Of a stretch of DNA of 38,509 bases, positions 20,183-28,201 are shown one piece after another. Position numbers and translations under genes: made by a program. The notes beneath the pieces are model-generated. The model saw only the letters and a list, made by a program, of their open reading frames with translations. It ran no database searches and was not told the DNA's origin. Source of the DNA: an uncultured bacterium (GTDB lineage: Bacteria > Fidelibacterota > Marinisomatia > Marinisomatales > Marinisomataceae); the NCBI GenBank assembly GCA_905182795.1, contig CAJJCZ010000005.1:1-38509 (forward strand), read 5' to 3'. Numbering within the stretch: the first letter of the stretch is position 1; each line of letters opens with the position of its first letter.

Positions 20183-23100
20183 CTATTGATCAGTATCAAA
20201 GAAGAACTTTGTTAGTTGTACCCACACCACTAGTCCTATTGCGGAGGATACCACTAATAATATTGCTTCATTAGGATAAGAATTAAATGCACCAAATTCA
20301 TTGTTTGAAAAGGTGTTAATAATTCTTCCAAATAATACCATGAATGGTATTAACATATAGTTATTCTTGATAATAAACTTATAAACCATAAAGAGTACAA
20401 TAGAGTATAGTGTTATCAATAATAACGATAAGCCAATATTATACTGCATTCCAATTTCTCCGCCATACACAAACATAACTAACAAGATTCCATAAATAGT
20501 AGATTTGATAGTATTGGCGTATCCATCTGTCCATTCAAACAAGATTTTAGCAAAGAATAAGGTGAATGCTACTGATACAAACCCTCCATAGATATTAAAT
20601 GTATCCAATATTGGGTAGTATGATCCTCCAAGAGTGATTCTTGGAAAATTAGGGTTTAAATCTAATTGAAATGTCCCTATAAGCATCGCAGATATTGCTC
20701 CTAATAACGCTGCAACCAATCCACCAATTATAGAATCAGAAAGTGAAGTGCGATTTAACGTATCTTTTAGTATTCTACCTAAGCTCCCAAAAAATAGTAC
20801 CTGAATTAATGACACAACTAGAAGTCCTATCATACTAGATATATACATCGTAATCATTAGATTGGCAATTGGTTGATCTGTAGGCATTGTCATAAGGAAC
20901 GAAGAATCGTTAAAGAAATTAATTAACGCACTAATAAAAATAACTGCTCCAAAGAATAATCCTTTTCTAAGATTTATCTTTCTATCCAACAACATTTTAA
21001 ACGAGCGTATAAGCAATAGTCCGCCAATAAATAGGCCTCCAGGAATAGTAAATAACATTGCAAGCATTCCTGAAAATCCTTCCCTGTCACGCTTCATTCT
21101 TTCCCAATCTTCGGGAACGTATACAGATTGTGAAAATCCAGCAAGTTGGTCACCTGATATCGTAACAATACTTTGAAACTGAGATCCTTCATAGCTTATT
21201 TCTCTATCTTCTTTATATGTAAATATCCAATCTAGTCGTTCTGGTTTTTGAGATTCAACCGCACTAACTAAACTCACCATACTTGTACTAAGGTTAAAAT
21301 GATCTCTCAATGCTTGGTCTGCTATAATCTTTGCATCTGACTGAGTTAAAGACGCTCCTACTTCACTTTCAGGAAATTTATTATAAAAACGGATAGGGCT
21401 ACCTTCAAAGTCTACAGAAACTACTACCTCTCTTACTCGTGTTTCTACCTCTCCATCAAATTTAGCAAATCGAACCTTCCATCTTGGAGCCAACACATAA
21501 GAGCCTAATAAATCACTAAAGGCATCGGATCCTAACTCTTCCCATATAAACCCGGAAGCAGGATAGCCCGTAACAACCATTGCGTTTCCTTCATATCCTT
21601 CAGGTAAAGTAATATTCTGAGTGACAAGAAAATCTTCTGCAATACCAATTGCCTGTTCACGATTTATGGTTGGCGAATCCAAAGAAACATCTGAACTGCT
21701 AAACTTAAATGATGCCATGGCTACAACAATAAAGAGGATCGAACCTAATAAGATTTTCTTATTTAATGGCGACCCATCTTGTATGATAGCTTTTGACTTT
21801 TCTTTGACTGCGGGTATTTCAGGTGGGGTTGGTTCAAACCCTTTGTTAAGCGATGAATCATCTATTTCAGACCATCTATTTGCTTTCATTCTAAAATACA
21901 AAATAACAAGCAATGGAATAGCTGCACAAAGAACAGTCATAAACTTATCAACGACATAACCACTTGAATACCATATAGGTAGTGAAAATAATAAAACATC
22001 ATATAGGTAGTGTGTAATCGCGCCGAATATCACGCCTAACTTTAAGTATAGCATTCCATATACAATAATAGATGGTAGGAATAACTCTACTACCCTAGCA
22101 TAAGAAGGCTGTGCTGGATAATTAGCATGCCCTGCTCCAAAAATTAACGCCTGGAGTATCATCGCAATGACCAGTCCAGTAAAACGCATATTATATCTTT
22201 GTCCAATCAATACTCCTGCTCCGATTGGTACGGCACGAAAGAGCATTTCTTCCCAAAATCCTGCTTGCAATGAAATAGCAATTCCTGTATACCATGGGAA
22301 TACAGATGCAAGATAATTTGGGTCAGCCATACTACTTGCTGGAGACCAAAATCCAAAATATTTTTCCATAAGAATATAAAATGCACCAACAATAGCCAGC
22401 TTAATTGGGACAATTAAATACGCAAAAATAGTATCGTTGAGTACGCGCTTTGAATTAGCAACATTCATTGTCCATGTTTTCCATAATTGAATATGTTCTG
22501 GGAATGCCTTTCTCGTCAATGACTCTGCAATTACAAAAGTTGCACCAAAAAGTAAGAAATTAATTACTCCCATGGCGAGCATAGACATTAAGCCCTCTAG
22601 CATAAATTGTGACTTGCTAGTAGCAGTGTCATAAGCCATCCACATCGTTGGATAAAAATTTAATTGCGCTAATGTGCTGGTTGTCGCAATAAACGCTGCA
22701 GCTAATAATGATGACTTCCATCTTAACCAGCCGGTACGATAAAAAATAACTATCGATCCTACACCTATTATTAACATATAAATACCCAAGAATGCAAAGT
22801 TTGCAAACATGGCAATGGTGTCATTATCTGATCTTATATTAGCAAATTCACGATCGAATGATTCTGGAATGAAAGCGCTAGGCAGCACAGAGCTTACCAT
22901 TGATCCTGACACATCAATATCTAATCTATATTTTGCATCTCCAATATCTTGGAGTTTATGTTCAAATAGAAAAGCGTGATCTATCCTACCATTTGGCATT
23001 TCTTCAAAAGAAGATTCTATTAACGAATAGTCTGCAAAATTTCCAGACCAATGATCGTTAATTTTTAGAGCTACTAAGCTGAGGGCGTCTTCTTCTGATA

Positions 23101-23518
23101 AACTATCTGCATCATGATCTTCTGGAATTTTAACACGATATCCATTGGAAGATCCATCAGGCTTGAACATAAAACTTGCTTCAGCTACCTGACCTTCTTT
23201 AAAGGTTCTTACAATCCAGTTGTATGGTGAAAAAACATCGCTATCAATAATCGATTGAAATTTTTCTCGACCACCTTGTTTTAATTCTACATAATCACGC
23301 AAGCTGGAACTGAAACCATACGCTGCGGCTTGATCAAGATTATCACCTAGTATTTCAAAATCTTCGGTAGCTGCTTTTCCTTCTTGTAAAGCTAGCTCTC
23401 TATCCATTGAGACGTTGACATTTAAGCCTCCAAGAAAATCATTCCAGTAATAGGCGAGACCTAGAGTGCTGGCAATAGCAAAAACACATGTGATAGATAA
23501 AATTTTATTAGTGGTCAT
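20183..23518 (-). CDS. Very large CPBP-family intramembrane protease with duplicated extracytoplasmic domains
   Basis: A 1111-residue membrane protein. The CPBP (Abi/Rce1-like) core carries all three motifs: Glu423-Glu424 and Arg428 in EEMLFR, His464 in FGAGH, and His503/Asp507 in THYLYD. An N-terminal signal/TM helix is followed by a soluble domain (about 25-230), then helices, the protease core, and a second soluble domain (about 610-820) followed by further helices. The two soluble domains share the same pattern (Ala-rich helix, FSxLLGS-like and WxVRF strands), indicating duplication. Substrates are unknown. Ordinary CPBP proteins have about 200-300 residues. Confidence 0.85.
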   Translation of the reverse strand: MTTNKILSITCVFAIASTLGLAYYWNDFLGGLNVNVSMDRELALQEGKAATEDFEILGDNLDQAAAYGFSSSLRDYVELKQGGREKFQSIIDSDVFSPYNWIVRTFKEGQVAEASFMFKPDGSSNGYRVKIPEDHDADSLSEEDALSLVALKINDHWSGNFADYSLIESSFEEMPNGRIDHAFLFEHKLQDIGDAKYRLDIDVSGSMVSSVLPSAFIPESFDREFANIRSDNDTIAMFANFAFLGIYMLIIGVGSIVIFYRTGWLRWKSSLLAAAFIATTSTLAQLNFYPTMWMAYDTATSKSQFMLEGLMSMLAMGVINFLLFGATFVIAESLTRKAFPEHIQLWKTWTMNVANSKRVLNDTIFAYLIVPIKLAIVGAFYILMEKYFGFWSPASSMADPNYLASVFPWYTGIAISLQAGFWEEMLFRAVPIGAGVLIGQRYNMRFTGLVIAMILQALIFGAGHANYPAQPSYARVVELFLPSIIVYGMLYLKLGVIFGAITHYLYDVLLFSLPIWYSSGYVVDKFMTVLCAAIPLLVILYFRMKANRWSEIDDSSLNKGFEPTPPEIPAVKEKSKAIIQDGSPLNKKILLGSILFIVVAMASFKFSSSDVSLDSPTINREQAIGIAEDFLVTQNITLPEGYEGNAMVVTGYPASGFIWEELGSDAFSDLLGSYVLAPRWKVRFAKFDGEVETRVREVVVSVDFEGSPIRFYNKFPESEVGASLTQSDAKIIADQALRDHFNLSTSMVSLVSAVESQKPERLDWIFTYKEDREISYEGSQFQSIVTISGDQLAGFSQSVYVPEDWERMKRDREGFSGMLAMLFTIPGGLFIGGLLLIRSFKMLLDRKINLRKGLFFGAVIFISALINFFNDSSFLMTMPTDQPIANLMITMYISSMIGLLVVSLIQVLFFGSLGRILKDTLNRTSLSDSIIGGLVAALLGAISAMLIGTFQLDLNPNFPRITLGGSYYPILDTFNIYGGFVSVAFTLFFAKILFEWTDGYANTIKSTIYGILLVMFVYGGEIGMQYNIGLSLLLITLYSIVLFMVYKFIIKNNYMLIPFMVLFGRIINTFSNNEFGAFNSYPNEAILLVVSSAIGLVVWVQLTKFFFDTDQ

Positions 23519-26650: not shown

Positions 26651-27001
26651 TTATTGATTTTCTTGGTTTACAGTAAACTTATAGTAGGTAATATTACCGA
26701 CACCAATAGCAAACGGAATAGATCCTATCAATCCCGCTGCACCAAATTCACCCTCAAACATAAATCCTATCATAATCAACAGTCCAATTACTGCCCAAAT
26801 AATTCCTTTACGCAAATAATCTAACGGGGTTGTACCTGAACCTGCCAATGGTACATCAACTCCCTTTTCAATGGCGCTCATGATTTCTTTGTGCAATAAT
26901 GATCGAGCTTGCATTTCTTTTTGTACTCCAACCCAAATTATAAATCCTACCAGCACTAGTGATCCAAGTGGAATAAGTATGCCTAATTGTGCCATAGTCA
27001 T
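26651..27001 (-). CDS. DUF6249-like membrane protein
   Basis: A 116-residue protein with an N-terminal helix (about 8-25), a charged cytoplasmic loop (KEMQARSLLHKEIMSAIEKGVDVP) and two C-terminal helices (about 66-103) around the glycine-rich EFGAAGLIG turn. This matches the DUF6249 pattern I remember; function is unknown. The ATG overlaps the upstream lipoprotein stop (TAATG). The pair is divergent from the ECF sigma gene, and anti-sigma or envelope-stress effectors commonly sit there. Confidence 0.65.
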   Translation of the reverse strand: MTMAQLGILIPLGSLVLVGFIIWVGVQKEMQARSLLHKEIMSAIEKGVDVPLAGSGTTPLDYLRKGIIWAVIGLLIMIGFMFEGEFGAAGLIGSIPFAIGVGNITYYKFTVNQENQ

Positions 27002-27321
27002 TATTCTTCTTCACTATCAATAGATATTACATCATTGCCATTAACATTGATTCGAACTTTTACTTTATTATTACCATCATCAAGATTCTCGAATTCACTA
27101 ACTTCAATCTGAAATTCTTCATCTCCATTGATTATATCTTCTCTTATTTTTTCAAATTCCTCTTTTGTAATAATCTCTGCATCAAAAGCAGCTTGTAGAT
27201 CTAATAATTCTTGCCCTGTTGTAATATTTCTATTGATATGAAGCTCTGCTTGACCTTCATTGAATGAGCCGCACCCGACAGTTAATACAAGTAGCATTAT
27301 TATTAATATTTTTTGTTTCAT
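27001..27321 (-). CDS. Lipoprotein with SHOCT-like segment
   Basis: A 106-residue protein from the ATG at 27321 (MKQKILIIM); an in-frame upstream ATG gives no sensible signal. The lipobox is LTVGC (Cys17). Residues about 35-63 have the SHOCT pattern (LLDLQAAFDAEIITKEEFEKIRE). An acidic C-terminal tail follows. A GGAG ribosome-binding site lies about 8 nt before the ATG. It is co-transcribed with the DUF6249 gene from the predicted minus-strand ECF promoter. Confidence 0.7.
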   Translation of the reverse strand: MKQKILIIMLLVLTVGCGSFNEGQAELHINRNITTGQELLDLQAAFDAEIITKEEFEKIREDIINGDEEFQIEVSEFENLDDGNNKVKVRINVNGNDVISIDSEEE

Positions 27322-27352: not shown

Positions 27353-27381
27353 TTAGACTTAACTAATTTGAAAAAGTTGCA
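27353..27381 (-). promoter_or_regulatory. Candidate ECF-type promoter (minus)
   Basis: On the minus strand TGCAACTTTTT (27371-27381) is followed by GTCTAA (27353-27358), with 15 nt between GCAACTT and GTCTAA. The same two boxes occur on the plus strand toward the ECF gene. Transcription would start near 27346, leaving about 25 nt of leader with a GGAG site. Confidence 0.65.
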
Positions 27382-27403
27382 AAACTCAATATAAAAATTT
27401 CTA

Positions 27404-27433
27404 TGCAACTTTTTATATGAAACTTTGGTCTAA
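27404..27433 (+). promoter_or_regulatory. Candidate ECF-type autoregulatory promoter (plus)
   Basis: TGCAACTTTTT (27404-27414) is followed by GTCTAA (27428-27433), with 16 nt between GCAACTT and GTCTAA. The -35-like AAC and -10-like GTCTAA boxes are mirrored on the minus strand. It resembles ECF promoters (AAC -35 box). The resulting transcript would start very near the TTG at 27439. Confidence 0.6.
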
Positions 27434-27438
27434 ATACA

Positions 27439-27918
27439 TTGGATTATAAAACAAAACATAAAATTTTTATGCAAGCAATAACTACATATGGATCAAGACT
27501 ATACAACATTTCACTTTTTGTTCTTAAGAATGAAGTATTAGCAGAAGATTCTACTCAGGAGTCTTTTCAGAAAATATGGAAAGCGCTGGATAATTTTTCA
27601 TTCAATTCTTCCCTATACACATGGATGTATCGCATTACTTACAATAATGCATTGACGACGTATAATCGAGAGAAAAAACATAAAGGACGAGATATAGAGT
27701 ATGAAGGTTCTGTAAAAGATTTTGATTTAATTAATAGTATTACCTTAAAAGATGCTATTGAAAAATTACCGTTCACTCATCGAAAGGCTATTGTTATGTT
27801 TTATTTTTTAGATCATAGTATTAAAGACATCTCTGTGGAACTTTCTATTAAAGAGAATACAATTAAGTCTTGGTTGAAGCGCGGTAAAGAACAATTAAAG
27901 GAGTATATAAATGAGTAA
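27439..27918 (+). CDS. ECF-type RNA polymerase sigma factor
   Basis: A 159-residue sigma-70 family protein, the usual ECF size. Region 2 has LAEDSTQESFQKIWKAL (about 33-50), and region 4 the helix-turn-helix IKDISVELSIKENTIKSWLKRGKEQL near the C-terminus. The start is TTG at 27439 because region 1.2-like residues HKIFMQAI fit the family; ATG at 27469 is the alternative. The gene overlaps the next one by 8 nt. Its likely target promoters are the two flanking candidates. Confidence 0.9.
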   Translation: MDYKTKHKIFMQAITTYGSRLYNISLFVLKNEVLAEDSTQESFQKIWKALDNFSFNSSLYTWMYRITYNNALTTYNREKKHKGRDIEYEGSVKDFDLINSITLKDAIEKLPFTHRKAIVMFYFLDHSIKDISVELSIKENTIKSWLKRGKEQLKEYINE

Positions 27919-28201
27919 TAAGAATTATCCTAATATGTTTGATGAACAAATTGCTAACCCAGAATTTCTAGATTCATTACAGTCTATTGCAAAAGAACCG
28001 TTAACTCATAAAATATTATCAACTATGGAACCATTTAGAATGTTAACTGGAGCTATTATTTTATTATTTTATGCAAGTAATATAATGGATGCGTTATTCA
28101 AGATATATTTTTATTATGCAGAGCAAATAAATATGAAAATAGTAAATATTCAAATAGTCAGTGCATATGCAGAAGATGTGGCAAATTTCTTACTAAAATA
28201 A
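27911..28201 (+). CDS. Small membrane protein, anti-sigma candidate
   Basis: A 96-residue protein with a polar N-terminal 40 residues and a hydrophobic segment (about 44-66). It overlaps the ECF gene by 8 nt, so it is translated with it. Position and topology suggest an anti-sigma factor, but no zinc-binding HxxxCxxC motif is present. It is then an unrecognised anti-sigma type or merely a co-expressed membrane protein. Confidence 0.6.
   Translation: MSNKNYPNMFDEQIANPEFLDSLQSIAKEPLTHKILSTMEPFRMLTGAIILLFYASNIMDALFKIYFYYAEQINMKIVNIQIVSAYAEDVANFLLK

Follow-up and report, generated by a model that had tools for sequence, protein, structure and literature searches.

The closest described systems are the sigmaE/RseA pair of E. 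coli and the SigW/RsiW pair of B. subtilis, which share with the locus described here the ECF domain architecture, an AAC-type -35 and a GTC-type -10 element, and a small membrane protein encoded beside the sigma gene. In the crystal structure of SigW with its -35 element, Thr171 contacts base -34, and S172 of sigmaE contacts the same base in its crystal structure (PMC6713349). A C at -34 was noted by the authors of the structure to be aligned with Ser in SigZ (PMC6713349). The Bacteroidota systems EcfO, ECF114 SigR-1/SigH-1 and ECF21 Das/Dma, from the same superphylum, also combine an ECF factor with a membrane anti-sigma factor, which is presumed for our locus. Induction of its own operon is reported for Das2/Dma2 (PMC13088901). 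The available portions of the descriptions of these systems make no mention of DUF6249. A full-text search for DUF6249 in the open-licence literature returned one unrelated plant paper only, and no described case of regulation was found for uncultured SAR406-type marine bacteria.

The window, i.e., the whole stretch of 38,509 nucleotides that was analysed, belongs to a 946-kb genome (98.5% complete) of Candidatus Neomarinimicrobiota. In comparison with sigmaE/RseA and SigW/RsiW, it has two mirrored promoters, a divergent DUF6249 output and a C at -34; its partner protein has neither a zinc finger nor a Pfam match, and the sigma mRNA is predicted to be leaderless. It is highly probable that positions 27353-27433 hold two divergent promoters of the neighbouring ECF sigma factor, which would be switched on jointly when the partner protein releases sigma. 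Uncultured SAR406-type marine bacteria would thereby gain a sigma factor for which a promoter code can be predicted.

Organization of the locus

The region contains the following features:

26651-27001, - strand: DUF6249 membrane protein gene (PF19762, 40 bits against a cut-off of 33)
27001-27321, - strand: small gene for a lipoprotein-like product, which has a signal peptide with Cys and a weak SHOCT-like segment
27330-27334, - strand: Shine-Dalgarno sequence AGGAG of the lipoprotein gene
27353-27358, - strand: -10 box GTCTAA, lipoprotein/DUF6249-ward promoter (spacing GCAAC-N17-GTC)
27376-27381, - strand: -35 box TGCAAC, lipoprotein/DUF6249-ward promoter (sequence match)
27404-27409, + strand: -35 box TGCAAC, ECF sigma-ward promoter (sequence; kept in orthologues)
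27428-27433, + strand: -10 box GTCTAA, ECF sigma-ward promoter (spacing GCAAC-N18-GTC)
27439-27918, + strand: ECF sigma factor gene, start TTG 27439, alternative start ATG 27469
27868-27870, + strand: codon of S134 (numbered from ATG 27469), the recognition-helix residue tracking the base before AAC (mutual information; PMC6713349)
27911-28201, + strand: gene of a 96-aa protein, presumed anti-sigma factor, that has a single hydrophobic segment; the gene overlaps with the end of the sigma gene

Two copies of TGCAACTTTTT, at 27404-27414 (+) and 27371-27381 (-), form a perfect 11-bp inverted repeat. Sequence matches confirm that an earlier note on this DNA had placed both arms and their GTCTAA sites correctly. 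Its spacing of 15 or 16 nt holds when the gap to GTCTAA is counted from the end of TGCAACTT (16 nt on the + strand, 15 nt on the - strand), but not from the TTTTT end, where the gap is 13 nt (+) or 12 nt (-). Counted as GCAAC-N-GTC, N is 18 (+) and 17 (-). The same note held that such mirrored boxes are hard to explain by chance. When the window was shuffled 100 times with dinucleotides preserved, the full two-box pattern gave 0 matches, and a reversed control pattern gave 0 in the whole 946-kb genome. The genome-wide scan that it proposed finds TGCAACTTTTT-N12/13-GTCTAA at exactly two places, both at this locus, one facing the ECF gene and the other the lipoprotein/DUF6249 pair. Sigma-70 type promoters in the region are no more numerous than in shuffles.

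The flanking genes are also those that had been named. The sigma protein scores above the Pfam cut-offs for Sigma70_r2 (40.8 bits) and Sigma70_r4_2 (50.3 bits), and reaches 68 bits for TIGR02937. It is assigned to the ECF (group IV) factors by its domains, Sigma70 region 2 and region 4 only, and, judged from sequence, by the AAC -35 and the GTC -10 element that precede its own gene, in keeping with the ECF type of promoter (GTC/CGT-type -10, about 16-18 nt between the boxes). DUF6249 likewise exceeds its Pfam cut-off, and its start codon overlaps the lipoprotein stop. The SHOCT match of the lipoprotein-like protein is below threshold. The first-listed start of this ORF (27345) lies too far upstream, and ATG 27321 fits the signal peptide and the Shine-Dalgarno sequence.

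The RNA polymerase holoenzyme that reads both promoters would carry the ECF sigma factor encoded next to them. The (+) promoter would drive the sigma gene together with its small membrane partner, which would amount to autoregulation, and the (-) promoter would drive the lipoprotein and DUF6249, whose products may act in the cell envelope. Release of sigma by the partner, a presumed anti-sigma factor, would switch on both promoters together. This division of the two promoters between the sigma gene and the divergent lipoprotein/DUF6249 pair, as the earlier note had it, is the favoured reading and draws strong support from the comparison of related loci.

Conservation in close orthologues

A sigma profile search of 245 genomes of the phylum identified four close orthologues (E <= 1e-66; next best 1e-31). 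The carriers are the window genome (G000), G015 of the same genus, G020, and G038 of another family, whose sigma shows 55% identity. Lack of conservation of the boxes at orthologous ECF loci had been named as an outcome that would refute the claim; they lie beside the sigma gene in 4/4 carriers, including the one in another family, and beyond these close orthologues they recur in most loci where ECF and DUF6249 genes diverge, both in the phylum and in Bacteroidota.

The two -35 boxes overlap in G015 (GTTGCAAC / AAAAAGTTGCAACTTTTT) and abut in G038 (GTTGCATGCAAC), in both cases with one promoter directed toward sigma and the other toward DUF6249. In G020, sigma, partner and then lipoprotein and DUF6249 follow one another on one strand, and the promoters stand in tandem, in direct orientation and 795 bp apart, each directly before its own gene. 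The pairing of promoter and gene survives this rearrangement but the palindrome does not, and this speaks against a palindromic operator. DUF6249 was found in seven of 61 relatives, all four sigma carriers among them.

Some irregularities were observed at these loci. In G020 (L034:5001-5450), a run of T around codon 113 contains a frameshift that interrupts the sigma frame, either an assembly error or a sign of a decaying gene, and both promoters are kept. In G038 (L043:8230-8245), no in-frame ATG, GTG or TTG for the sigma orthologue is present near the -10 box and the frame opens at ATT 8234, reflecting either an assembly indel or a non-standard start. A small Met-/Lys-rich protein with one hydrophobic segment adjoins the ECF unit in two congeners, at differing places (L033:3075-3458 and L034:4392-4856). 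It is absent beside the window's unit, and towards its C-terminus it is similar to the lipoprotein's end (KVxVNGxE).

Recurrence of the mirrored layout

Loci in other genomes were picked by the presence of DUF6249, and the counts given here cover ECFs with DUF6249 only; related loci are non-independent, and the genomes are mostly metagenome-assembled. DUF6249 occurs in 40/245 genomes of the phylum and, in a local search, nearly all fetched loci have it in divergent orientation to an ECF gene; L120, L122 and L126 have no ECF/DUF pair. A first set of 29 divergent ECF/DUF6249 gaps comprised 28 from Neomarinimicrobiota and one from WOR-3. GCAAC-N15-20-GTC faces both genes in 27 of these 29 gaps, and 300 dinucleotide shuffles of the set gave 0 loci with the pattern towards both genes and, on average, about 0.3 per set with a single one. 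The exceptions are L117, a mirrored GCAAC pair in which CTC replaces one GTC (by eye), and the WOR-3 locus L039, with GAAAC on both sides. The ECF factors of these loci are distant from the window protein. Within the phylum, the -35/-10 spacing is N18 nearly throughout, with N17 on the lipoprotein side of the window clade, and the gap between the arms ranges from -2 to >100 nt.

In Bacteroidota, DUF6249 is present in 77/297 genomes (E <= 1e-10). All 30 fetched loci contain an ECF gene in the same stretch, divergent in 24. A second set of 23 gaps (22 Bacteroidota and one WOR-3) shows mirrored AAC-N18-GTC in 18, and a scan of spacings from 10 to 26 over the same gaps gave 0 at 10-16 and 20-26 and one each at 17 and 19. 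Among the remaining loci, inspection by eye shows mirrored GTAAC boxes in L146, L155 and L159, accompanied by ATC or a spacing of N19. The divergent Bacteroidota and WOR-3 loci (e.g., L128, L130 and L154) resemble the window in gene order and in mirrored AAC-N18-GTC promoters. They differ in the -35 element, which is GTAACC, GAAACC or rarely GCAACC rather than GCAACW, and a window-like lipoprotein was found in none of those checked.

Conservation of the promoters, their fixed spacing, the identity of the two boxes within a locus and their linkage to this sigma lineage are established by comparison of sequences. From this, we infer that both promoters are recognized by this sigma factor. The mirrored layout in three phyla seems to represent an old, undescribed regulatory unit, in which the uncharacterised family DUF6249 would be the direct output, conserved across these phyla, of an ECF system. 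L070, L074 and L076 have DUF6249 genes of another type, with no ECF gene and followed by a 70-aa HTH protein.

Base -34 and the recognition helix

The base before AAC is identical on both sides in every scorable locus. It is C/C in Neomarinimicrobiota; outside this phylum, nine loci are T/T, nine A/A and one C/C. Four apparent C/G loci arose because the script picked a match inside the ECF gene, and the true DUF-ward box is GCAAC. Among all columns of the ECF alignment, the highest mutual information with this base was found for window S134, in the recognition helix. In this column, Ser goes with C (23/23), Thr with A (6/6) and Val with T (9/9), and Ala with C or A. S134 aligns with SigW T171 and sigmaE S172, and T168, K170, T171 and R175 of SigW align with the recognition-helix contacts of the window protein (PMC6713349).

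On the tree, the base before AAC changes only about four times. This is too few for a formal test, and a proof of coevolution through independent pairs was dropped for that reason; the match between base and residue is thus strong circumstantial evidence. Another ECF factor of the window genome also has Ser at the S134-equivalent position, so this residue alone does not set specificity. The -34 bases C, A and T with their matching recognition-helix residues form a natural series for testing a change of ECF specificity with two promoters in step.

Start of the sigma transcript

TTG 27439 starts 11 nt downstream of the G in the -10 element GTC, and its position matches the start codon of most related loci. 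G015 and G020 have a TTG at the matching position; G038 has no in-frame start nearby. Counted from the G of the sigma-ward GTC, an in-frame start codon begins at a distance of 9-16 nt in 25/27 Neomarinimicrobiota loci, compared with a rate of 6% at this distance in the two remaining frames and 4/28 on the DUF6249 side. Bacteroidota and WOR-3 have such a start in 8/19 loci, with more just beyond. As SigW numbering (G-35) puts GTC at -12 to -10, the sigma start codon falls at or beside +1, and a promoter so near the start codon leads to the prediction that the sigma mRNA is leaderless.

On the DUF6249 side, 17-68 nt separate +1 from the start in most loci (lengths that place +1 9 nt beyond the G; placing it 12 nt beyond shortens the leaders by 3 nt), and a Shine-Dalgarno-like sequence is present in 25/28 Neomarinimicrobiota loci. 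For the window, the sigma mRNA is predicted to begin without a leader at TTG 27439, and the lipoprotein/DUF6249 mRNA to carry a leader with a Shine-Dalgarno sequence. The first of these predictions is open to direct checking in cultured Bacteroidota that carry the mirrored ECF/DUF6249 unit.

A broader reading is offered tentatively, as falling slightly short of an even chance. The ECF/DUF6249 unit would predate the split of Neomarinimicrobiota, Bacteroidota and WOR-3, the -34 base of both promoters would change with sigma, and a leaderless sigma mRNA beside outputs with leaders would let the translational state of the cell affect sigma and output in different ways.

Partner protein and extent of the regulon

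In every locus inspected, the ECF gene is followed by a gene for a small protein, which has either one hydrophobic segment or two. The partner equivalents of L106, L110, L116 and L130 contain an HxxxCxxC-type motif like that of zinc anti-sigma factors. Across orthologues of the window clade, the conserved part of the partner is its N-terminal stretch. A Pfam search with the protein of 27911-28201 gave no match, and it is presumed to be a reduced (zinc-less) anti-sigma factor.

The suggestion that the locus is a self-contained regulon proved nearly right: the window genome has one further promoter with the same boxes, before a DUF5916 gene. This GCAAC site is a single unpaired copy, kept in G015 with one mismatch. 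The DUF5916 gene (L187-L205) has GCAAC/GTCTAA-type boxes in G000 and G015, and GGAAC or GAAAC with GTCAAA in G020 and in congeners without this sigma. In these two species, the promoter looks to have passed from one ECF factor to another. Motif matches elsewhere in the 61 relatives are scattered single ones, and those examined lie inside long ORFs, with the exception of the DUF5916 site. Single matches in G005, G017, G020 (300670) and G000 (C6 and C3) were accordingly taken as chance.

A TolC-family gene was rejected as a regulon member, having a GAAAC-type promoter in many congeners without this sigma and a degenerate one in the window genome (L164). Its GAAAC-N-GTCTA promoter is kept across the genus (L162, L163, L165, L167, L168, L170 and others) and probably belongs to a second ECF factor.

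Alternative explanations

That the inverted repeat represents a structured RNA or a terminator has negligible probability. The 81-nt stretch does fold better than shuffles (-16 kcal/mol, z -3.9), but any inverted repeat folds so; moreover, the repeat lies upstream of both predicted transcripts, a search of Rfam gave no match at the gathering threshold, and the tandem arrangement of G020 has no such hairpin. It is also extremely unlikely that the repeat serves as the operator of a dimeric DNA-binding repressor or activator in place of two promoters. The perfection of the 11-bp arms in the window and the abutting or overlapping arms of G038 and G015 would suit an operator. However, the distance between arms varies widely in the phylum while the -35/-10 spacing of each arm is fixed, the boxes of G020 are directly oriented far apart with a gene after each, and the DUF5916 site consists of an unpaired copy.

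The boxes might also be promoters of another ECF factor, since two further sigma-like ECF genes are present in the genome, one with Ser at the -34 contact, and GAAAC/GGAAC-type promoters precede the TolC-family gene and the DUF5916 gene of congeners in genomes without this sigma. This is very unlikely, as the presence or absence of the exact GCAAC form at the locus follows that of this sigma gene, promoters in congeners retaining the other ECFs are of the GAAAC or GGAAC form, and mirrored boxes are found upstream of neither of the other two genes. Two divergent promoters of the neighbouring sigma factor remain the preferred reading.

Elsewhere in the window, positions 20183-23518 encode an Rce1-like protein that resembles membrane proteases and is very large, at about 1110-1140 aa. 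A similar counterpart (L043:3663-7076) is found near the ECF locus of G038.
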